Shown: piece by piece, positions 3,454 through 62,998 of the stretch
Layout: each line of letters begins with the position of its first letter
Numbering within the stretch: the stretch's first letter is position 1
Assembly (NCBI GenBank): GCA_012517325.1
Contig: JAAYVF010000087.1
Span: 1-64,000 of the forward strand
Source: Myxococcales bacterium
Lineage (GTDB): Bacteria > Lernaellota > Lernaellaia > Lernaellales > Lernaellaceae
DNA length: 64,000 bases
Reading direction: 5' to 3'
Made by a program: the position numbers and the translations under genes
The notes under the pieces: generated by a model
What the model was told of the DNA's origin: nothing
The model's database searches: none
The model's input: only the letters and a program-made list of their open reading frames with translations

Positions 3454-5742
3454 TTATCGGCCGACCGTCCCCAACGGAAACAAGGCATAGCGCAGGGATG
3501 CCGAGCCCGCGTAGGCCGCATGCCCCCAACCGGCGCGATCCAGAGCGAACGAAGTTCGTCCGCTGACCGAGGAACCCGTATCGAGCACCCGGCCGGTCCA
3601 GCCGGCCGCCGGATCGCCCCAGACGTAATCGGTTTGCGCGGGGTCGCCGCTGTAATAAGTCAGATGCGCCGCGCCTTGCCGGTCCGCCGCCAAGGAGGGG
3701 TAATAGAAGTTGCCGCCCTCGCCGATCGTCACGACCTGCCAGGCGGCGAATTCACTGGGCTTATACGCGTACCGCAACCATCCGTCCAGGCCCGTCGCAT
3801 AAACGGCCTGCACCGCGCCGGAGGCGGCGGCGGACAAATCGACGTACCATCCCGGATCGGACTCGCCGTCGACCGTCTCGAAGACCCAGGCCCCGAAACC
3901 GCCGGTCGCATAGCGCAGCCGGCTGAAAGCGGCGTCACGATACGCCAGGTGCACCCGGCCCGCGTCGTCCACCGCCAGCGACGAGTACTCGCCCGCGTCG
4001 CCGCCGGCGTCGACGAACTCAATCCGCCAATCGCCCGTGGCGTTGGTCGCGTACTTTAGTGCCGCGTGGGAATGGTCGCGGTAGGCGATGTGGACGCGCC
4101 CGTCGCCGTCCAGCGCCAGCGACGGGTTCAGGCCGACGTCGCCGTCGGCATCGATGGTCAGGCCGATCCAGCCGCCCAGGAGATTGGTGGCGTAAACGAG
4201 GTCGCCGGCGGCGCGGTCGTAGAAGGCTACATGCGCGAAGCCCCCGTCGTCCACCGCCAGCGACGGGTAATAACCCGTGTCGCCGTCGGCGATCACCGTT
4301 TCGATCGTCCAGCGGTTGCCGAGCAATCGGGCCAGTTTCAGCCGTTTGTTCGAGTAATCGTAGTAGGCGATTTGCGGCCCGCCGTCGCGGTCCAGCGCCA
4401 GCGAAGCGTACAAGCCGACCACGCCGTCGCCGTCGAGGTGCGCGACCGTCCAGGCGGCGCCGTCGTACTCCGCCAGTTGCAACCCGTCGAGGCTGTAAAA
4501 CGAGAGGTACAACCGTTCCGCCGCGGCCAGCAAATGGGTCTGCTCGCCGTAGAGCCGGCCACCGCCGACGGTTTCGACGTTCCAGACGCCTTCCCGCCGT
4601 ACCGCGTGCAGCAGTTGGTCGGCGCCGTTGTCGTAATAGGCGGCGTGGAAATCGCCGGCCTCGTCCGCCGCCAGCGAAACGTAATAGCCCCGGCCGGACG
4701 CCTCGTCGATCCGTTCGCTCTGCCAGAGGCTGCCGTCGCGCCACGCCCAGTAAGGGGCGGTATCCGGCCCGGTGTAACGGTAGGCGATGCCGATCCGGCC
4801 GTCCGCGGCGATCGCCAGCGGATGATAGGTTTCCAGCCGGGCGCTGGTCGCCACGATTTCGGTCCGCCAGGCGTCCGAGCTTTTTTCCGCGTGGTAAAGG
4901 CCCGTCCCGCGGTTGTAGGCGATATGCGGGCCGCCGCCGGCGTCGAACGCGATACCGCTGAACGGGCCGAAGGTTCCCGAGTCGCCGAGCGTCGCGAATT
5001 GCCAGTCGCCGCCGGCGTTGGTCGCGTAGGTCTGCCGGCCGTCCCCGTCGACGTACGTTAAGTGGGCCTGCCGGTCGGCGTCCACCGCCAGCGCCGGCCG
5101 CACCGCCGCGGATTCCGCCGCGTCCACGTCCGTGAATTCCCAGCCGCCGTTCGCGTTGGTGCCGTAAACGATGCGCTTTTCCACGCCGTCGAGCAGGTAG
5201 GCTACGTGCAACGCATCCTGCGCGTCGGCGACCAGCGACGGCGAGCGGGCCTGCTCGGCCAGTTCCTTCATGCTCACGGCCTGGTTTTGCAGCGTGTAGA
5301 GGTACAGCCAGCCTTCCTTGGCCGCGGCGACGGCCAGCGCGCCGGAAGAGAGGCGCGCCACGGAGGTGCCGTCCAGCCCGGGCAGGCCGCCGTCGATCAG
5401 CTCGACGCGTACCGCGAGAGGCGTGTCATCGTTGTCGTTGTCGTCGTCATTGTCATCGTTGTCGTCGTCGTTGTCGTCATTATCGTCATTGTCGTCATCA
5501 TCATCGTCGTCGTCGCCGGAATCGTTGTCGTCGTCGTTGTCGTCGTCGCCCTCGTCCGTGTCGTCGTCAGCGCCGGGATTCGGGGTAGGAGAGGAATCGT
5601 CGTCGGTCGGGATCAAGCCGTCGAGCCAGTCATTTTCCGCCGCGTCGGCAAAGGCATCGGCGAAATCCTGGATGCTGCAGCCGGCGACGGCCAGCAAGCA
5701 AAACGCCACGGCAAGGTGAAACCAGCCCCCAAAGCGGTGCAT
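3454..5742 (-). CDS. D/N-tethered lipoprotein with about 13 beta-propeller-like repeats
   Basis: This 762-residue protein starts with a signal peptide and lipobox (AVAGC, lipidated Cys22). An Asp/Asn-rich low-complexity tether covers roughly residues 45-107. The rest is a tandem array of about 45-50 residue repeats, each with the kernel S-L-A-[VL]-D-x-x-G-x-x-H-[IV]-A-Y-x-D, then a strand such as L-x-Y-A-T-N, then G-x-W. About 13 copies can be read, consistent with one or two beta propellers of the sialidase/FG-GAP kind, but the catalytic Arg triad of sialidases is not visible. It probably sits on the outer membrane and binds glycans or proteins. The gene follows the 711-residue protein gene by 58 bases. 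The kernel is clear, but function is unknown. Confidence 0.8.
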   Translation of the reverse strand: MHRFGGWFHLAVAFCLLAVAGCSIQDFADAFADAAENDWLDGLIPTDDDSSPTPNPGADDDTDEGDDDNDDDNDSGDDDDDDDDNDDNDDNDDDNDDNDDDNDNDDTPLAVRVELIDGGLPGLDGTSVARLSSGALAVAAAKEGWLYLYTLQNQAVSMKELAEQARSPSLVADAQDALHVAYLLDGVEKRIVYGTNANGGWEFTDVDAAESAAVRPALAVDADRQAHLTYVDGDGRQTYATNAGGDWQFATLGDSGTFGPFSGIAFDAGGGPHIAYNRGTGLYHAEKSSDAWRTEIVATSARLETYHPLAIAADGRIGIAYRYTGPDTAPYWAWRDGSLWQSERIDEASGRGYYVSLAADEAGDFHAAYYDNGADQLLHAVRREGVWNVETVGGGRLYGEQTHLLAAAERLYLSFYSLDGLQLAEYDGAAWTVAHLDGDGVVGLYASLALDRDGGPQIAYYDYSNKRLKLARLLGNRWTIETVIADGDTGYYPSLAVDDGGFAHVAFYDRAAGDLVYATNLLGGWIGLTIDADGDVGLNPSLALDGDGRVHIAYRDHSHAALKYATNATGDWRIEFVDAGGDAGEYSSLAVDDAGRVHLAYRDAAFSRLRYATGGFGAWVFETVDGESDPGWYVDLSAAASGAVQAVYATGLDGWLRYAYKPSEFAAWQVVTIGEGGNFYYPSLAADRQGAAHLTYYSGDPAQTDYVWGDPAAGWTGRVLDTGSSVSGRTSFALDRAGWGHAAYAGSASLRYALFPLGTVGR

Positions 5743-53098: not shown

Positions 53099-54103
53099 AT
53101 GCGCAATATCCGCATCCCGCTGATTTTTTCCCTGCTGACAGCCTTGTTCGCCGGCCTGTATCTCCTGCTGCCGTCCTGCAGCGTCGAAGACAGCACCCCC
53201 AAAAACGACGTCGAAAAACTGGCGTTGGCCGAGCAAATGGTCGACCGCTACCTGGCGGGTTGGACCGCTCGCGACGTCGACGCGCTGCTCGAGTTGTACG
53301 GCGAAGGCGCCACCATCATTCTTCCCGGCCGCGGCTCGTTTTCGCCGACCGATTTCCGCGCCTACCTCGAAAACCTGTTCGCCGCGCTGGATACGCTCGA
53401 CACCAAGGAAACCGGCCGCGAGGTCCTGCTGACCAGCAGCAATTCCGCCACCGCCAAGTTCCGGCACTGGCTGCTGACCGTCGACAAAAGCGGCGCGGTG
53501 TTCGCCGAAAAAACCTGGGTCAAGCTGCAGATGTCGTATTCGTATTCCAAGAACTGGCGGATCGTCTACCAGAACGGCGAGGACCAGATCGTGCTCAACG
53601 ATCAGCTCGGCACGATGTTCAGCCTATGGGTCAACGCCTGGCGGTCGCGGAGCGTCGACGGCATTCTCGTCGTGTACGCTCCGCAGGCGACGATCGTCGA
53701 GGCCGACGGCGAAACCCTGACGCTCGACGATTACCGCGCCAGGCTCGCCGAGTTGTTCGCCGGCCTGCAATCCGCCCAGGTCAATTACTACGATTACACG
53801 CTGAAAAACATGGACTGGGAAACCGCGCGCCTCGCGTTCCGCCTGAGCAATTTCTACACCGATCTCGAAGGCGGCACCGCCACGGTTTCCACCGACTACA
53901 CCTGGGATCTGAGCATCAAGGACGACGACACGGGGTGGCTGGTGACCGCGCAGACGGCCGCCAACGAATCGTCGACCGATGACGACGATGACGACGACGA
54001 CGACAACGACGACAACGATACCACGCCCGGCGACGACGACGATGATGACGACGACGATAACGACGACAACGACGACAACGACACCTCGCCGGATACGGTT
54101 TAG
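53099..54103 (+). CDS. Lipoprotein with two SnoaL/NTF2-like domains and a C-terminal D/N tail
   Basis: 334 residues. Lipobox LLPSC (Cys27). Two copies of an NTF2/SnoaL-type domain follow: LAEQMVDRYLAGWTARDVDALLELYGEGATI (about 43-75) and LGTMFSLWVNAWRSRSVDGILVVYAPQATI (about 175-205), each continuing with sheet strands. The Asp/Asn tract, which sits just after the lipid anchor in the other lipoproteins here, lies at the C-terminus (about 295-334). A near-perfect TATAAT (53060-53065) with poor -35 precedes the gene. Ligand unknown. Confidence 0.78.
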   Translation: MRNIRIPLIFSLLTALFAGLYLLLPSCSVEDSTPKNDVEKLALAEQMVDRYLAGWTARDVDALLELYGEGATIILPGRGSFSPTDFRAYLENLFAALDTLDTKETGREVLLTSSNSATAKFRHWLLTVDKSGAVFAEKTWVKLQMSYSYSKNWRIVYQNGEDQIVLNDQLGTMFSLWVNAWRSRSVDGILVVYAPQATIVEADGETLTLDDYRARLAELFAGLQSAQVNYYDYTLKNMDWETARLAFRLSNFYTDLEGGTATVSTDYTWDLSIKDDDTGWLVTAQTAANESSTDDDDDDDDDNDDNDTTPGDDDDDDDDDNDDNDDNDTSPDTV

Positions 54104-54178
54104 CGCGCCTTGGCGGCCGCCATTGCGGCCGGACGCGCCGGCTTTTATAGTTTTCTTCTAACCCGCATCGAGGTTGCC

Positions 54179-55522
54179 ATGTCTGGGTCGGCCGAATGGA
54201 AAAAAATGCTGGTGCTGTTGTTCGCGCTTTGCCTGGGGTTGACCCTGGCGGGTTGCGACTGCGGCGACGATGACGACGACAACGACGACAACAATCCCGT
54301 CGATGACGACGATACCTCGCCCGGCGACGACGACAACGACGACGCCTCGCCCGACGACGATGACGACGACAACGACGACAACGACGACGACGACACCACG
54401 CCGTCGCCCGCGGAACCCTACTGCACCGAGGGCAAGGATTTGCTGCAGGCGGCCGCCGGCGGCCTCGCCGCGCAAAAATTCCGCGCCGGCCTGGACCTCG
54501 ACGACGGCGCGGTGAACTGCCGCTACGGCCTGCTGCTGGCCGACACCCTGACCCAGTTCGACACGATCTCCGTTGCCGTCTCGTACATCGAGTCGTTCAT
54601 CGAAGGGTATCAACCGCCCGCCAAAGACGATTGGCCCCAAACCGGCCAGGGCTTCCTCGACGAAGTGCTCAGCCGCATCCTCGACGGGCTGCTGTTCGAG
54701 GCCTCCGACGAGGCCATCGAGCAGGCGGAATGGCTGCGCGAAAACGAGCCGGACGTCGTGTATCCGGTCGATACCCTGCCGATCATCCTCAATTTCTCCC
54801 AGGTCGCCGACGCGGCGGGCGATTACGACCTGCCCGACGCCGTGGCCGCCGAGGGCTTCGCGGGCATGTTGCCGGGCCTCGCGGCGCACCTCACCGCGCT
54901 GAATCTCGATTTCGACATCGGCCTGATTTTCGAGGTGGTCAACCTCGATTTCGGCATGCCGATCGAGGATTTGCTGGGCGTCCTGGTCGACGACCTGCTG
55001 CGGCTGTTCAACAACCCGCTGTATCCCGACTTCTTCACCCTCAAGGACGACGCCGCGCCGTTCAAGGCGGCGGGGTTGAAGACCGGCCTCGGCTTCCGCC
55101 ATACCGAAGAAACCCTTAAGCTGATCCTGGCCGAGGAGGGCGATCAGAGCAACGAGGTGTTGGGCTACGACGACCAGAACGGCAATCAGCAATGGGACGA
55201 GGGCGAAGGGCTGATCGCGCCGCCCAACGGCGTGCTGACCGACGAGGAAAACGTCCAAGCCTTGGCGATCGCGCAACTGGCCGGCCATCTGGCCGACAGC
55301 TTCCTCGATTACACCGACTACGACAACAACCCCGCGGAGTCGCAACCGTTCCGGCTGGCGTATCTGAACGACGTGCTCACGGCGTTCGGGCTGCCGGCCC
55401 TGATTCCCGATCTGGACGCGCTGGTCATCGACTTCGGCGCCGCCTATCGCGACGCGAACCCGACCTCGCTGCGCAACACGATCCGCACGATTCTGTTGTT
55501 GCTGGATTCGTTCCTGCCCTGA
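54179..55522 (+). CDS. D/N-tethered lipoprotein, paralogue of the 30532-32529 product
   Basis: 447 residues. I use the ATG at 54179 (MSGSAEW), with GAGG six bases upstream; the frame is open further 5' without a good site. Lipobox TLAGC (Cys26) and a tether to about residue 76. The mature part is mainly helical: CTEGKDLLQAAAGGLAAQKF, NCRYGLLLADTLTQFDTISV, DLLGVLVDDLLRLFNNPLYP and a calcium-site-like loop DDQNGNQQWDEGEG. The order of these blocks repeats that of the 665-residue lipoprotein at 30532, which has an extra beta-rich insert. Function unknown. Confidence 0.77.
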   Translation: MSGSAEWKKMLVLLFALCLGLTLAGCDCGDDDDDNDDNNPVDDDDTSPGDDDNDDASPDDDDDDNDDNDDDDTTPSPAEPYCTEGKDLLQAAAGGLAAQKFRAGLDLDDGAVNCRYGLLLADTLTQFDTISVAVSYIESFIEGYQPPAKDDWPQTGQGFLDEVLSRILDGLLFEASDEAIEQAEWLRENEPDVVYPVDTLPIILNFSQVADAAGDYDLPDAVAAEGFAGMLPGLAAHLTALNLDFDIGLIFEVVNLDFGMPIEDLLGVLVDDLLRLFNNPLYPDFFTLKDDAAPFKAAGLKTGLGFRHTEETLKLILAEEGDQSNEVLGYDDQNGNQQWDEGEGLIAPPNGVLTDEENVQALAIAQLAGHLADSFLDYTDYDNNPAESQPFRLAYLNDVLTAFGLPALIPDLDALVIDFGAAYRDANPTSLRNTIRTILLLLDSFLP

Positions 55523-55633
55523 GAGGCAAACGCCGGCGAACCGACAACGCGACAAGCATTTGAAGCGACGGCGGTCGTTCGCGCCGGTGTTTTTCGGCGA
55601 CACAATCCCATAAGTCCATGAAACATCTTTGGA

Positions 55634-55662
55634 TTGTACAATAATAAAAAATATTGTATTAT
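55634..55662 (+). promoter_or_regulatory. Predicted promoter for the 55689 lipoprotein gene
   Basis: TTGTAC (55634-55639) and TATTAT (55657-55662), 17-base A/T spacer, 27 bases before the ATG. Confidence 0.55.
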
Positions 55663-55688
55663 TTCTCGTCGGCGCACAGGAGTCTTCG

Positions 55689-57170
55689 ATGAAGATGAAC
55701 TCCCCGTGGGCAATGGTTTTCTTCCTTTCCTGTCTTTTTTTCTGCGGCTTGTCCTGCGACCAAAACTCGAATGATGATGACTCGTCCGACGACGATCAGA
55801 CAAGTGACGACGATAATGACAACAACGACGATAACGACAATATTGCCGATGATGATGACGATGACGATGACGATGATAACGACGATGATGATGACAACGA
55901 TGATGACGACGACGATGACGATGACGATGATAACGACGACGATGATAACGACGACGATGACGACGATGACGATGATAATGACGACAACGATAACGATAAC
56001 GATAATGACAGCGCCTTCACCTGCGACGAATTGGTCAGCGATCAATTCAATTTCGGATTTACCGGCGCCGAATTGTTTTTCGATTCCGGCGGGAGATTGC
56101 GGTTGGCGTACAGCCGCAGCCGGATGGGAGACGATTGCACGAGCGAAGGCATCTTTTATGCATTGAAGGATTACGGTTTCTGGACCATCTACCAGATCGG
56201 CGCGACGGATTACTGCGACTACGACAACGAATACCACTACTACCGCTGGGAATATCTGGAGACGGGCGATTCCTACGATTTCGCCTGGGGAGCGGACGAC
56301 CGGTTCCAAACGGCTTACCAACAAAAAACCCAGGTGGCCTATCGAATTTTGTACGATCCTTATTATTGCAATTCCACGGGCGCGCTCAGATATTCATCCG
56401 GCCTGGGGACGTCCCTCGAACTGGATTACGAAGCCGGCTCCTACGGCGGAACGTCGTCCTGCGAATCGTCCAATGCGTCCGGGGTCGCCATGGCGCTGGA
56501 TTCGTCCGGCGCGGCGCACATCATCGCCCAGAACATCGACACGCAGTTCGTCGATCCGCCCTCGCTGCGGCATTACACGATCAAGGGCGACGAGCCCTGC
56601 GAGGAAATCGTGGCCGAGCTGCCCTGCCAATACGACGCGATCCAACGAAGCTTTTTGTTCGCCGACAGCGGAGATCGCCTGCGCGCGGCCGCGATCTGTT
56701 CCGATTCGTCCGATCTGCTGCTCTATGACGGCGACGAAACCGGCTGGACCGCCGGGACGCTGCCCGCGGTTCTATTCGGCGGCACGCCGCAAATCCGGCT
56801 GCTCTTGGGCCACGACGACCGGCTGCGTCTCGTCTACGCGGATGCCGACGATCTGTGGCTGTTGACCGAAACGGCCGGCGGCTGGGACGAGGAAATCATT
56901 CCCACCGCCAGCGGCGCCGAAAACCTCGAAGCCTTCCTGCTCGACGACGCCGACCACGCTTTCGTCGTTTACGCCGAAACGGCCGACAGCGGCGCGGCGA
57001 TCCTCGCCACGAACCGCGGCGGCACCTGGACCGGGACGCCGCTCGCCGCCGATTTGGAGGTGCTGGCCATTGGCTTGGACGAAAGCGACGTGCTGCACCT
57101 GATTTACCGGCGCGGCGATCCGTGGATGCAACTCTTGCGCCACGCCTGCTACCCGCTCGGCGTGGATTGA
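55689..57170 (+). CDS. Lipoprotein with the window's longest D/N tether and a propeller-like domain
   Basis: 493 residues. ATG at 55689 with AGGAG six bases upstream. Lipobox GLSC (Cys23). The tether spans about residues 28-108, over 80 positions made almost only of Asp and Asn. The mature part has loose repeats typical of FG-GAP/sialidase-like propellers (GGRLRLAYSRSR; SSGAAHIIAQNI; DDRLRLVYADADDLW; DDADHAFVVYAETA; ESDVLHLIYRRGD) and several cysteines in the first third. Related in style to the 3454-5742 lipoprotein. Ligand unknown. Confidence 0.75.
   Translation: MKMNSPWAMVFFLSCLFFCGLSCDQNSNDDDSSDDDQTSDDDNDNNDDNDNIADDDDDDDDDDNDDDDDNDDDDDDDDDDDNDDDDNDDDDDDDDDNDDNDNDNDNDSAFTCDELVSDQFNFGFTGAELFFDSGGRLRLAYSRSRMGDDCTSEGIFYALKDYGFWTIYQIGATDYCDYDNEYHYYRWEYLETGDSYDFAWGADDRFQTAYQQKTQVAYRILYDPYYCNSTGALRYSSGLGTSLELDYEAGSYGGTSSCESSNASGVAMALDSSGAAHIIAQNIDTQFVDPPSLRHYTIKGDEPCEEIVAELPCQYDAIQRSFLFADSGDRLRAAAICSDSSDLLLYDGDETGWTAGTLPAVLFGGTPQIRLLLGHDDRLRLVYADADDLWLLTETAGGWDEEIIPTASGAENLEAFLLDDADHAFVVYAETADSGAAILATNRGGTWTGTPLAADLEVLAIGLDESDVLHLIYRRGDPWMQLLRHACYPLGVD
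55770..56010 (+). repeat. GAC/GAT/AAC trinucleotide-type repeat tract
   Basis: About 240 bases consist almost only of Asp and Asn codons (GAC, GAT, AAC, AAT) in the lipoprotein gene. The tract is prone to slippage; length variation would keep frame in steps of three. Confidence 0.8.
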
Positions 57171-57247
57171 GCCGGCCCCCGCTCCTTCTCTTTTGCCGCG
57201 ACCTTTTCTAGAATGAACCTCATTCCACCCGGTATCAGGAGAAGCGC

Positions 57248-59107
57248 ATGAAAACGAAGTTCCTCGGGCCGCGAACCATCGGCTTCCTCCTCGTTTTGTG
57301 TTTCTTGTGCGCCGCCTGCGGCGGCGACGACGATGACGACGACGCCAGTGGCGGGGCGGACGACGATGCCGACGACGACGCGGGCGACGACGACGATGCC
57401 GCGCCGATCGTCGATCTGCGGGCGGACGTGAACCGCGACGGAACGGTGGATTTGGACGATCCGGCCGAGGACGAGAACGAGGATACGTGGGACGCCGCGC
57501 ACGGCGCGATCTTTCTGGCCAACCTCGACGACGACACGCGGCGCTGCCCGACCCAGGCCGCGTTGAGCGACGCCGAGCTGGCCGCCTGCAACGACGCGAC
57601 CGACGAGGTCGTCAACGGCGAGGACGACCTGCTCGATCTGGCCCCGCTGCGCGTGGCCGCCTGGCCGGACGCGCCGGACGACGCCGTCGCCACGCTCGCC
57701 GCCGATCCGGCCGCGGTCGTGCGCCTCTTCGTCCAGGACGGCCAGAGCTGGCGGGCGGTCGCGTTCGGCGATACGCAATTCGTCGCCGCCGACCTGCGCG
57801 CGGGCCTCATCCTGGCGTTGGAAGGCCTGGACATCGTGCGCGATCCGGACGTCTGGGACGGTTTCGTCGACCTGACCCTGCGCGTCCGGTCCGGCGGGAA
57901 GGAAGTCGGCGCCGATACGGTGCGCCTGCGGGTCGCGCCGATCATGACCTTCCATCACCTGTTGCCCGAGGAAAGCGTTTACGCGCTGCGGATCCCGAGC
58001 CAGCAGGCATCGCTGGACTTCTTCGCCGACCTGCAACCGGCGGTCGATGAGATCGGCGTGCCGCTGGACGACATGGCCGAACAACTCGACATCAACGCGA
58101 TCGACCAGTGGACGCAGGACTTCATGGAATTCGGTTACATGAGCAGCCCGGCGGCCGGCGGCGCCCAGCACGTGATTCGCGTGGCCTACCGCGCGGCGAA
58201 CCTCGAGGGGCTGCTGCCGAAGTATCCGTTGCGCAAGGCGGGCCGGGTGGTGTTCACCAAGTTTCGCGGCCCCGATTTCGCGGGCATCCAGGAATACGAT
58301 CCGAATCACAACCTGTCCGCCGACAGCCTGAATTCCTTCGGCAACTGGGAAACGATCCCGCCGCACGAGTACGCCGGCGCGACCTATCCCCTCGGCCGCT
58401 TAATGGTCGGGGCCGTCGACGGTTTCGCGCCCGATCCGGCCTTCCTGGGCATGGTCGAGGCGCAGGGCTGGCAGCCCGCGGTGCATCTGGATACCTCGTG
58501 GCTGGCCGTGGGGCACGTCGACGAAACGCTCTCCTTCGCCAAGGCCGACAACGAGCGCGGTTGGATTCTGCTGATCAACGATGCGGCCATGGCCAGGCAG
58601 ATGCTCGAGGACGAAAGCGCGGCCGGGCACGGCGATACGCCGCTCTTCGCCGGCATGAAGACGATGTACGGCCTGTCCGCCGAACGGACGATCGACGAGG
58701 TGTTGGCCGATACCGAGGTGATGAGCGAAAGCGCCGTATCCGCCGTCGAGGTGCAGGGCCAACTGCAAACCTTGCGCGACGAGATCGGCGTCGCCGACGA
58801 GCAACTCGTCTGGATTCCCTACCTGCACGAGCGCGTCCTGGGCAAGTCGCTGGCCTACAACCCGGGCACGGTCAACTCGCTTTACCTCGCCGACGATCTG
58901 TACGCCGCGCCCGAAACGCACGGCCCGGTGATCGACGGCGTCGATATCTTTAAAGAGCAATTCGAGGCCGCGCTGGCCGATTGGGGCATCGGCGTCGCCT
59001 GGATCGAGGATTGGGACCTGTATCACATCCTCTGGGGCGAGGTGCATTGCGGCACCAACTCGCAACGCGCCGTCCCCGACGTGAAATGGTGGGAGGTGGA
59101 ACCATGA
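57248..59107 (+). CDS. Lipoprotein with peptidylarginine deiminase (PAD) middle and catalytic domains
   Basis: 619 residues. The signal peptide ends at a lipobox-like CAAC (Cys24) and an Asp-rich tether (27-50). Residues about 54-232 match the PAD middle domain, including the calcium-loop string DVNRDGTVD. Residues about 233-619 match the catalytic domain of vertebrate PADs. From remembered PAD4 numbering, Asp350, His471, Asp473 and Cys645 correspond to Asp291 (WTQDFMEFGY), His423 and Asp425 (VGHVDETLSF) and Cys601 (GEVHCGTN). Trp288 and calcium-1 ligands Gln290, Glu294 and Glu368 also match; the residue for Glu351 is Phe292. The PAD N-terminal domain is replaced by the lipid anchor. It should convert peptidyl-arginine to citrulline outside the cytoplasm. 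Coupled to the next gene by ATGA. Confidence 0.9.
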   Translation: MKTKFLGPRTIGFLLVLCFLCAACGGDDDDDDASGGADDDADDDAGDDDDAAPIVDLRADVNRDGTVDLDDPAEDENEDTWDAAHGAIFLANLDDDTRRCPTQAALSDAELAACNDATDEVVNGEDDLLDLAPLRVAAWPDAPDDAVATLAADPAAVVRLFVQDGQSWRAVAFGDTQFVAADLRAGLILALEGLDIVRDPDVWDGFVDLTLRVRSGGKEVGADTVRLRVAPIMTFHHLLPEESVYALRIPSQQASLDFFADLQPAVDEIGVPLDDMAEQLDINAIDQWTQDFMEFGYMSSPAAGGAQHVIRVAYRAANLEGLLPKYPLRKAGRVVFTKFRGPDFAGIQEYDPNHNLSADSLNSFGNWETIPPHEYAGATYPLGRLMVGAVDGFAPDPAFLGMVEAQGWQPAVHLDTSWLAVGHVDETLSFAKADNERGWILLINDAAMARQMLEDESAAGHGDTPLFAGMKTMYGLSAERTIDEVLADTEVMSESAVSAVEVQGQLQTLRDEIGVADEQLVWIPYLHERVLGKSLAYNPGTVNSLYLADDLYAAPETHGPVIDGVDIFKEQFEAALADWGIGVAWIEDWDLYHILWGEVHCGTNSQRAVPDVKWWEVEP

Positions 59108-60048
59108 ACCGCCGTCGCTGGTTGATCGGACTGCTGGTGTTGTGGCTCGTCGCCGCCGGAAGCGCGAGCGCCGACGCCGCCGCGGGCATGCTCGTCTCCG
59201 GTTCGCAATTGGCGGCCGCGACGGCGCAATCCCTGCAAGCGCGGATCGCCCAGGCCCGCGCGGCCGATCCGGATTCGTTCGTCGCGGTGCGGCGGGTGAT
59301 CGAGGACGCGCCCCGCTTCGCCGAACAAGCGCGCCATCGGCGGGCGCTGATCACCCCGGCACTGCGGGCGATCGGCCCGCGGGCGCTCTGGCCGCTGGTG
59401 GAATACATCGCCTTCGCGTCGCCGGACCGCGCCGCTTTCACCGATCAGCAATGGCTGGACGTGCGCTGCGGCGTTTTGGAGGCGGCGGGGATGATCCGCG
59501 ACGCGCAAGCCCTGCCGGCGTTTGACGCCGTGCTGGCTGACCCGGCGCAACCGCCGATCGTGACGCGGTTCGCGGCCGAGGCGGTGGGCCGGATCGGCGA
59601 CGACGACGCGGTGCGCGCGTTGCAAACCCGCCTCGCCGCCGCGGGCGGCGAACGGCGCTCGGCGATCCTGGCCGGTATGGGCCAATGCCGGCGGGCGGCC
59701 GTCGCCCGGTTGCTGGCGGCGGAATTGCGGGCGAGCGCGCCTGGCGAGACGCGCTCGGCGTTGATCGAGGCGCTGCGCGATGTCGGCAACTCCTGGGCCT
59801 GGAATACGCCGGCGATCGCGGCGAGCGGTGAAGGCGAAACCGTCCGCCGAGTCGCGGCCGAGGCGCTGGTGGGACAATTCACCCGCCTGACCGCGCCGGA
59901 ACAGGAAGCGGCGACCAAGGCGTTACTGGTGATCGATCACCCGGCGACGCCGGCCCTGGTCGCGGGCGTCCGGGCGGTCGGTCCGGAAGACCGGGCCGCC
60001 CTCGACCGGCTGCTCGCGCGCCTCCAGGACAACCCGCTCCATCACTGA
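59104..60048 (+). CDS. Exported HEAT-repeat-like protein coupled to the PAD gene
   Basis: 314 residues. The ATG at 59104 overlaps the PAD stop. Signal peptide WLIGLLVLWLVAAGSASADA, then helical repeats resembling HEAT or Armadillo units: LITPALRAIGPRALWPLVEY, FAAEAVGRIGDDDAVRALQ, RSAILAGMGQCRRAAVARLL, ALIEALRDVGNSWAW, VAAEALVGQFTRL. HEAT solenoids usually bind proteins. Translation coupling to the deiminase suggests it presents, inhibits or recognises the deiminase's targets; that is inference. No enzymatic motif is seen. Confidence 0.78.
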   Translation: MNRRRWLIGLLVLWLVAAGSASADAAAGMLVSGSQLAAATAQSLQARIAQARAADPDSFVAVRRVIEDAPRFAEQARHRRALITPALRAIGPRALWPLVEYIAFASPDRAAFTDQQWLDVRCGVLEAAGMIRDAQALPAFDAVLADPAQPPIVTRFAAEAVGRIGDDDAVRALQTRLAAAGGERRSAILAGMGQCRRAAVARLLAAELRASAPGETRSALIEALRDVGNSWAWNTPAIAASGEGETVRRVAAEALVGQFTRLTAPEQEAATKALLVIDHPATPALVAGVRAVGPEDRAALDRLLARLQDNPLHH

Positions 60049-61576: not shown

Positions 61577-62998
61577 TCACGCCTGCGTCGCGTCGGGGTC
61601 TTCGAGCGCCAGCCCGCGCAGCAGCCAAACGGCGTCGGCCGCCGAGACGACGCCCTGCTCGAGCCGCTCGGCGACCAGCAGCAGATTCTGCCGCACGGAT
61701 TGGCAAACGTTCTCGGCCCGCAACAAGCGCGAACTGGTCAGTTCGATGCGTTCGGAGATGTCGGTCAGAATCGCCTGCATCAGGTCGGGATTTTTCGTCA
61801 GGAAGATCGTCAACTCGTCGGCGCCGATCCGCAGAACCTCGCAAGCCGTGATCGCCCGCAGCGTAGCGGAACGCAGCGTGCCCTTGATGATGGCCATTTC
61901 GCCCAACACCTTGCGCGGCTCGGCGATCACCGCCAGCCGGCGGCCGCCGCGCAAAACCTCGACGCGGCCGTCGATCAGCCAGTAGACGGCGTCGGCCACG
62001 TCGTCCTCGTAAAACAGCACCCGCCCGGCCTTCAGGTGCAGAATCCGCCGGCGATCCTCGGGCAACTGCAAAGCGGGAAAACTTTTTTTCAGCGCGCGGC
62101 CGCGGCGAACCTTGTTGTTGGCGCGCGCCCGGAAAACAGCCGTTTGCAGCGGCGACGGTTTTTCGCCGCGCACCCAGTCCAGATCGGCCTGCGTTTCGGC
62201 CAGATCCTGGTAGCGCGCCGCCGGGTCCTTCGCCGCCATGCGCTCGATCAGCCGGGCCAGCCGCTTTTGCGTTTCGCCGGTCCAATGAGCGGGAAATTTC
62301 ACCCGGTCGGTCAGTTGCCGGGTCAGCACGACGGGGATGCTGTTGCCCTTGAATGGCGGTTCGCCGACGAGCAGAAAATACAGCGTCAGGCCGAGGCTGT
62401 AGATGTCGGCCCGCCGGTCCACCTGGCCGCGACCGTCGATCTGTTCGGGCGCCAGATAGTGCGGGGTGCCCAGCACGCCGCCGGCCAGGGTGATCGTCGG
62501 ATCGTGATGGGTCTTGGCCAGGCCGAAATCGCTCAGCTTGGCCCGGCCGTCGCTCGTCAGCAGAATGTTCGACGGCTTGATGTCGCGGTGGACGTAGCCT
62601 TGCTCGTGCATGTACCGCAACGCGTCGGCGATCTGGGAAAAAACGGCCAGCGCCTCGTCCACCGGCAGCGGGCCGTCGAGGTGCACCTTCTGGTCGGCGG
62701 AGAGGCCGTCGACGTATTCCATGATCAGGTAAGGTCGGCCATGGATCTGGCCCGTCTTGTAGGCTGCCACCAGGTTCGGATGTTGGAGCGACAGCGCGGT
62801 GCGGCATTCGCGCTCGAACCGCTCGGCGTAATCGCAGCCCGGGCCCTGGCAGGCCGCTTCGTTGAGCACCTTCACCGCCACGGGCCGCTTCGGCCGCGCC
62901 TGCCGCGCCCAGTACACCTCGGCCATCCCGCCGCTGCCGATGGGGCGGATGTCCGACAGGCCGGGAATCTCCCGCACCGACGGTTGAAACGGTCGCAT
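61577..62998 (-). CDS. Serine/threonine protein kinase with C-terminal cyclic nucleotide-binding-like domain
   Basis: 473 residues. Hanks-type kinase: glycine loop GSGGMAEVY (21-29), Lys43 in VAVKVL, Glu64, catalytic HRDIKPSN (137-144), DFG (157-159), GTPHYLAPEQ. No membrane helix, so it is soluble. Residues about 330-440 form a cNMP-type domain (KAGRVLFYEDDVADAVYWLIDG; LGEMAIIKGTLRSAT) whose phosphate-binding cassette keeps Gly-Glu and Arg-x-Ala. It may be gated by cAMP, cGMP or a related ligand, like eukaryotic PKG in reverse order. A helical tail ends the protein. SD GGAAGGGA lies before the ATG. Target proteins unknown. Confidence 0.92.
   Translation of the reverse strand: MRPFQPSVREIPGLSDIRPIGSGGMAEVYWARQARPKRPVAVKVLNEAACQGPGCDYAERFERECRTALSLQHPNLVAAYKTGQIHGRPYLIMEYVDGLSADQKVHLDGPLPVDEALAVFSQIADALRYMHEQGYVHRDIKPSNILLTSDGRAKLSDFGLAKTHHDPTITLAGGVLGTPHYLAPEQIDGRGQVDRRADIYSLGLTLYFLLVGEPPFKGNSIPVVLTRQLTDRVKFPAHWTGETQKRLARLIERMAAKDPAARYQDLAETQADLDWVRGEKPSPLQTAVFRARANNKVRRGRALKKSFPALQLPEDRRRILHLKAGRVLFYEDDVADAVYWLIDGRVEVLRGGRRLAVIAEPRKVLGEMAIIKGTLRSATLRAITACEVLRIGADELTIFLTKNPDLMQAILTDISERIELTSSRLLRAENVCQSVRQNLLLVAERLEQGVVSAADAVWLLRGLALEDPDATQA

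Follow-up and report, generated by a model that had tools for sequence, protein, structure and literature searches.

Genes and Features of the Locus

The window, i.e., the whole stretch of 64,000 nucleotides that was analysed (contig JAAYVF010000087.1, assembly GCA_012517325.1), carries a gene for a putative lipoprotein peptidylarginine deiminase (PAD) and, overlapping its stop codon, a gene for a HEAT-repeat protein, here called the partner (Table 1). The first-pass annotation of this DNA described the PAD but missed both its middle domain, PAD_M, and the overlapping downstream HEAT gene.

Table 1. Features of the PAD-HEAT locus (positions are those of the window)
Feature	Position	Strand	Basis
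AGGAGA, Shine-Dalgarno-like, before PAD ATG	57237..57242	+	Read from sequence
Putative lipoprotein PAD gene, 619 aa, ATG start	57248..59107	+	PF03068, human PAD matches, invariant catalytic residues
Signal peptide and lipobox-like LCAAC, Cys24 codon 57317-57319	57248..57319	+	Cys aligned with relatives' signal-end Cys
Asp-rich tether, residues ~27-51	57326..57400	+	Sequence; such runs common in genome
PAD_M (middle, Ig-like, calcium-binding) domain, residues 55-220	57410..57907	+	Bacterial PAD profile vs. PAD4
PAD_C catalytic domain, residues 221-616	57908..59095	+	Pfam
Catalytic Asp291 (= PAD4 Asp350)	58118..58120	+	Alignments
Phe292 at PAD4 Glu351 (calcium-2) position	58121..58123	+	Alignment
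Catalytic His423 and Asp425 (= PAD4 His471, Asp473)	58514..58522	+	Alignments
Catalytic Cys601 (= PAD4 Cys645)	59048..59050	+	Alignments
GGGAGG, Shine-Dalgarno-like, within PAD coding end, seven bases before partner start	59091..59096	+	Read from sequence
Secreted HEAT-repeat partner, 314 aa; start overlaps PAD stop (ATGA)	59104..60048	+	HEAT_2, AF2, PAD adjacency
HEAT partner signal peptide, without lipobox	59104..59184	+	Sequence; Sec-like N-termini in aligned partners

The source genome has one PAD copy. Pfam family PF03068 (PAD) matches the window protein with 281 bits (cut-off 25; E 1.7e-83), covering the profile from position 3 to 395 (of 395), and the best PDB matches are human PAD3, PAD1, and PAD4 with E of about 1e-45, human PAD1-4 being the best solved relatives. 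Taken together, these values exclude a chance match, and the Pfam check for PAD_C that had been set beforehand is significant. PAD and PAD_M are the only Pfam domains matched. In an L-INS-i alignment, W347, D350, H471, D473, and C645 of PAD4 correspond to W288, D291, H423, D425, and C601 of the window protein, and these five residues are invariant across 20 aligned diverse bacterial PADs. The catalytic core claimed earlier is thus confirmed by the full-length PAD_C match with all four catalytic residues (Asp291, His423, Asp425, and Cys601) intact, and the motifs quoted in its support are all found: WTQDFMEFGY (288-297), DSLNSFGNWE (359-368), GPDF, YPLGRLM, VGHVDETLSF (421-430), and GEVHCGTN (597-604). 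KWW is also present, but it is not the ending, since the true C-terminus reads KWWEVEP. An AF2 model of the PAD, for which the input was two sequences (window and L002), has a pLDDT of 30.8.

Residues 1-23 form a signal peptide, Cys24 closes the sequence LCAAC, and an Asp-rich run comes next. A signal-end Cys is found in 38/40 HEAT-linked PADs, and Cys24 aligns there; the window PAD is predicted to be lipidated at this residue. The lipobox of the first-pass annotation stands in so far as a lipoprotein-type signal and an Asp tether are present, but LCAAC is non-canonical, with a Cys at -3 that lies outside the usual lipobox. Surface tethering turned out not to be new here: lipid anchoring is usual among bacterial relatives (the same 38/40 with this gene pair), and the Asp tether was rejected as a special feature on the grounds of 208 DDDDDNDD-encoding sites across the source genome vs. 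0 in a reversed control. The source genome encodes Omp85, therefore the cell has an outer membrane. Before the PAD gene, at 53099-57170, three consecutive ORFs encode exported proteins with Asp/Asn-rich runs, one of these proteins being SnoaL/DUF4440-like with a C-terminal run.

A profile built from 20 bacterial PADs aligns to PAD4 residues 111-660 as one stretch with E 1.5e-130; Pfam PAD_M, searched with the window sequence alone, gives E 0.0021, under the cut-off. Similarity begins at PAD4 residue 111, residues 1-54 being signal and tether, so the N-terminal domain PAD_N, which among PADs is confined to the late cyanobacterial/animal clade, is absent. The earlier statement that the PAD N-terminal domain is replaced is therefore correct for PAD_N, but PAD_M is retained. 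PAD4 residues are assigned here to the calcium sites as in PAD structures generally. By L-INS-i alignment with PAD4, the calcium-1 ligand positions are kept (Q290, E294, F364, and E368), which agrees with the first reading. Most PAD_M ligands of calcium 3-5 are likewise retained (N92, D94, D96, D116, D119, D127, D130, and E192), PAD4 E170 being V121 in the window PAD. All four calcium-2 ligands are gone: E351F (F292), D369R (R315), S370A (A316), and N373L (L328). Of these, the change of Glu351 to Phe had been reported before, and the loss now extends to Asp369, Ser370, and Asn373. The calcium-switch Asp (PAD4 Asp388) is retained as D343.

As for the partner, HEAT_2 (PF13646) matches 17/18 members of its family, the score of the partner being 28.1 bits vs. 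27.7. The AF2 model of the protein is an all-helical alpha-solenoid with a pLDDT of 80.7 and a pTM of 0.80. Foldseek with this model retrieves HEAT/ARM solenoids, several of which are designed Arg/Lys-peptide binders; an argument for substrate binding from these matches was set aside, since they are generic scaffolds and none has E <0.001. A signal-end Cys is absent in most HEAT partners. A consensus promoter scan gave no match. Further along the window, at 61577-62998 on the minus strand, lies a gene for a fusion of a Ser/Thr protein kinase with a cyclic-nucleotide-binding domain.

Type of the PAD

The PAD tree comprises 70 rows and 558 columns and was made with a quick method; it holds one human row and few cyanobacterial rows, fungal rows being left out. 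In this tree, human PAD4 and a cyanobacterial PAD (L015) group together with an SH-aLRT of 99, and the window PAD belongs to a separate clade (support 100) with Streptomyces PADs and the PADs of one large sampled phylum. A tree with cyanobacterial and metazoan PADs, as the first-pass annotation had proposed, thus leaves the window PAD outside the animal/cyanobacterial grouping.

Cummings et al. 2021 (PMC8826395) distinguish an animal/late-cyanobacterial type, having PAD_N and calcium-2, from a fungal/actinobacterial type, which has neither, carries a histidine motif in a linker strand, and has Gly at the calcium-switch position. By its clade, its His motif, and its calcium-2 loss, the window PAD belongs to the fungal/actinobacterial type, so the earlier term "vertebrate-type" is wrong; the absence of PAD_N and of the calcium-2 site speaks against it as well. 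The window PAD is like the fungal/actinobacterial enzymes in consisting of PAD_M and PAD_C and in the His-rich strand between the domains (FHHLL in the window, HHHL in L002). It differs in keeping the switch Asp343, vs. the Gly reported for the type (PMC8826395), although this Asp is also present in 2/3 Streptomycetaceae rows.

The Streptomyces PADs share 36% identity with the window PAD over residues 53-618, but they have non-lipid export signals, whereas the window PAD has a lipoprotein-type signal and a coupled HEAT partner. Two same-clade Streptomyces PADs (L012 and L013) lie on linear plasmids, with non-lipid export signals and no adjacent HEAT gene. A plasmid search yielded only four PADs, all from Streptomycetaceae, and no HEAT partner. 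A viral contig scan and a phage search found no PAD, so a phage link is unsupported.

The human enzymes PAD1-PAD4 (e.g., structures 3apn, 4n2c, and 7d4y) belong to the other clade and possess PAD_N and calcium-2, whereas the window PAD lacks both and appears to be exported and tethered. PPAD of Porphyromonas gingivalis, an envelope or secreted protein-citrullinating enzyme, lacks PAD_M and belongs to the extended agmatine-deiminase type. The window protein may resemble it as a bacterial enzyme of this kind, but it shows only PAD and PAD_M in Pfam and no PAD_porph/agmatine deiminase-type domain. PPAD is cited as a bacterial citrullinating enzyme in PMC8826395.

Pairing and Co-Inheritance of the Two Genes

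The same overlapping PAD-HEAT pair is present in L002 (a Zodletone spring MAG), L003/L018 (genome G096), and L007/L017 (genome G252); the pair is found in the phylum of the window, in the phyla of G096 and G252, and in the Zodletone MAG. Among 40 pairs examined, the spacing between the two genes is exactly -4 in 26, and 32 are within 5 nt or overlapping. Single-frame PAD-HEAT fusions were not seen.

PAD occurs in 83 of the 331 genomes of the phylum of G252. The HEAT partner is present in 49/83 PAD-positive genomes of this phylum vs. 0/248 PAD-negative ones (Fisher 1.9e-36). Of its 58 copies, 54 immediately follow a PAD in the same orientation, two immediately precede one (in one genus), and two lie on contigs other than that of the PAD, whose match sits at a contig end. 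Linkage by chance is rejected by these genome counts and by the 56/58 copies adjoining a PAD; the view that the partner is a general housekeeping HEAT protein was rejected as well. In multi-copy genomes, PAD and partner numbers agree, e.g., four and four in G662. In searches of 386 genomes across bacteria, where the first look scored 5-6 candidates per genome and rare divergent copies may escape, a near-full-length partner was found only in three genomes, all with a PAD of this clade, and one further genome gave a partial match of 64 bits.

The PAD and HEAT trees of 40 pairs have 20/37 splits in common (random maximum 3), and PAD and HEAT distances correlate at 0.62 (maximum under permutation 0.30). 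With partners reassigned only among paralogous pairs within a genome, the true pairing was in the top 2 of 1536. Species history alone does not account for this tracking of paralogues. Movement of specific pairs as units is consistent with the result, but so is physical linkage by itself.

The pair was likely acquired by the source genome through horizontal transfer, given that the nearest PADs (54% identity) belong to the phylum of G252 and that PAD is absent from the six further genomes of the source genome's own phylum. The HEAT protein nearest to the window partner belongs to a different row from that of the nearest PAD.

A Second PAD Group with Its Own HEAT Protein

PADs of the phylum of G252 that lack a HEAT partner of the window type form a separate group, termed group B (L077, L080, L081, L083-L085, L087-L089, L091-L094, L096, L097, L099, L100, L103-L105, L107, and L110). 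In the two rows checked, L092 and L080, the calcium-2 ligands E351, D369, and S370 are retained. A coupled secreted protein lies directly downstream in 22/23 group B loci, and nearly all of these proteins are mutually homologous; the exception, L094|40, is one of a tandem pair of PADs in L094, with the second PAD downstream instead. HEAT_2 matches all 20 group B downstream proteins scanned. When compared by profile with the family of the window partner, the group B HEAT proteins reach a probability of 95.5%, a value that HEAT proteins generally would be expected to give. Since group B has its own coupled HEAT protein, both groups of exported PADs in this phylum are associated with a HEAT protein.

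In one genus (g384; L111-L114), several genomes have a stand-alone group B HEAT protein and no PAD, e.g., L112 at 4301-5195 on the plus strand, where the gene adjoins an RND-type efflux operon. This may reflect either PAD loss or a different use of the protein.

Possible Function of the Gene Pair

The data make it probable that the locus is a two-gene module for citrullination in the cell envelope, composed of a lipoprotein PAD and a dedicated alpha-solenoid partner. The PAD would be exported through Sec, lipidated at Cys24, and held by the flexible Asp tether, with the outer membrane as its probable site, where it would convert peptidyl-arginine to citrulline by the Asp/His/Asp/Cys pentein mechanism and bind calcium at site 1 and at the sites in PAD_M, but not at calcium-2. 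The translationally coupled second gene would provide a soluble exported HEAT-repeat solenoid, which may control or direct the enzyme by binding either to it or to its arginine-rich substrates. HEAT proteins bind many things, and the role given here to the partner is a guess. Three observations run against the module: LCAAC departs from the canonical lipobox at -3, same-clade Streptomyces PADs lack an adjacent HEAT gene, and a group B HEAT protein occurs in one genus in the absence of a PAD. The second of these also means that the partner is not needed for the PAD fold as such.

The loss of calcium-2 along with the presence of a dedicated partner makes control by the partner an attractive idea. 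The two need not be linked, however, because group B retains calcium-2 ligands and yet has a HEAT partner. A wider reading, which we regard as somewhat doubtful, is that PAD and HEAT protein together constitute a widespread, mobile, and dedicated citrullination system of the bacterial envelope, in which substrate choice or switching of the enzyme by the secreted solenoid takes the place of the calcium-2 control found in animal PADs. The distribution of the pair suggests that many bacteria run two-part citrullination outside the cytoplasm.

The HEAT protein could instead be a general helper in folding, export, or anchoring of the PAD, being neither a regulator nor a substrate adaptor. Its strict dependence on PAD genes, the tight translational coupling, and its own export signal would all suit a helper, as would its sequence, which diverges faster than that of the PAD (longer branches). 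We consider this unlikely, if still deserving of attention: the Streptomyces PADs of the same clade manage without HEAT, and group B uses a distinct HEAT protein. A different resemblance is to the SitBAI cassettes of Myxococcus xanthus (PMC5562445), where a lipoprotein enzyme is likewise followed by a small coupled partner gene and several cassettes occur per genome. By analogy with SitA-SitI, the PAD would be a contact-delivered lipoprotein toxin that other cells receive on the outer membrane, while the producing cell would be protected by its HEAT protein. The gene order, the several paralogous pairs that a genome often has, and the way in which these pairs track each other agree with such a pair of toxin and immunity protein. 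SitA toxins, however, are polymorphic, with unrelated C-terminal domains, whereas the enzyme of the PAD-HEAT pairs is always the same conserved PAD with two domains, its C-terminus being conserved in all members; furthermore, the partner has its own signal peptide and is predicted to be exported. Because the C-terminus is not polymorphic and the Streptomyces relatives lack the partner, delivery as a toxin is the weaker reading and seems distinctly unlikely.

A scavenging role for the PAD, with free arginine, guanidino compounds, or short peptides as substrates and the partner as a structural component, is also rather improbable. The pentein fold does serve small-molecule enzymes too, and the PAD4 R639 substrate-contact position is Leu in the window PAD, but PAD3 has Leu there as well. 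In addition, the window PAD shares with protein-acting PADs both PAD_M and a full PAD_C, including W347- and R374-type residues, and a cyanobacterial PAD citrullinates proteins (PMC8826395). The view of the first-pass annotation, that a lone vertebrate-type PAD was moved to the surface of one bacterium, draws on motif identity with human PADs. It is hardly tenable now that vertebrates are seen to group with cyanobacteria and the window PAD elsewhere, that the calcium-2 site proves to be wholly lost, that the architecture is common in relatives, and that a coupled HEAT partner exists.

No paper describing a PAD paired with a HEAT-repeat protein was found among the open-licence literature, and lipoprotein PADs are not mentioned in the searched text of Cummings et al. 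2021 (PMC8826395) or of the microbiota paper PMC11121387. If true, partner-controlled citrullination would be a mechanism absent from the papers found among that literature. In one sampled phylum, PADs occur in 83/331 genomes, where they appear to be exported, lipid-anchored, and coupled to a dedicated partner. Should the pair be a working module, it would offer a bacterial setting for asking what purpose citrullination had before animals acquired it, how calcium control arose, and whether PADs are open to steering by a protein partner. Such steering, if true, would bear on the control of human PADs.

Other PAD-Like Sequences

A cyanobacterial-type PAD (L006/L016) appears to be disrupted, with an in-frame TGA and several shifts of frame, and is probably a pseudogene. 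Two other lineages (L008-L011 and L019-L021) have shorter exported PAD-like pentein proteins that score 38-100 bits, one of them matched in two pieces, and show little or no PAD_M. These proteins may form a separate secreted deiminase family.
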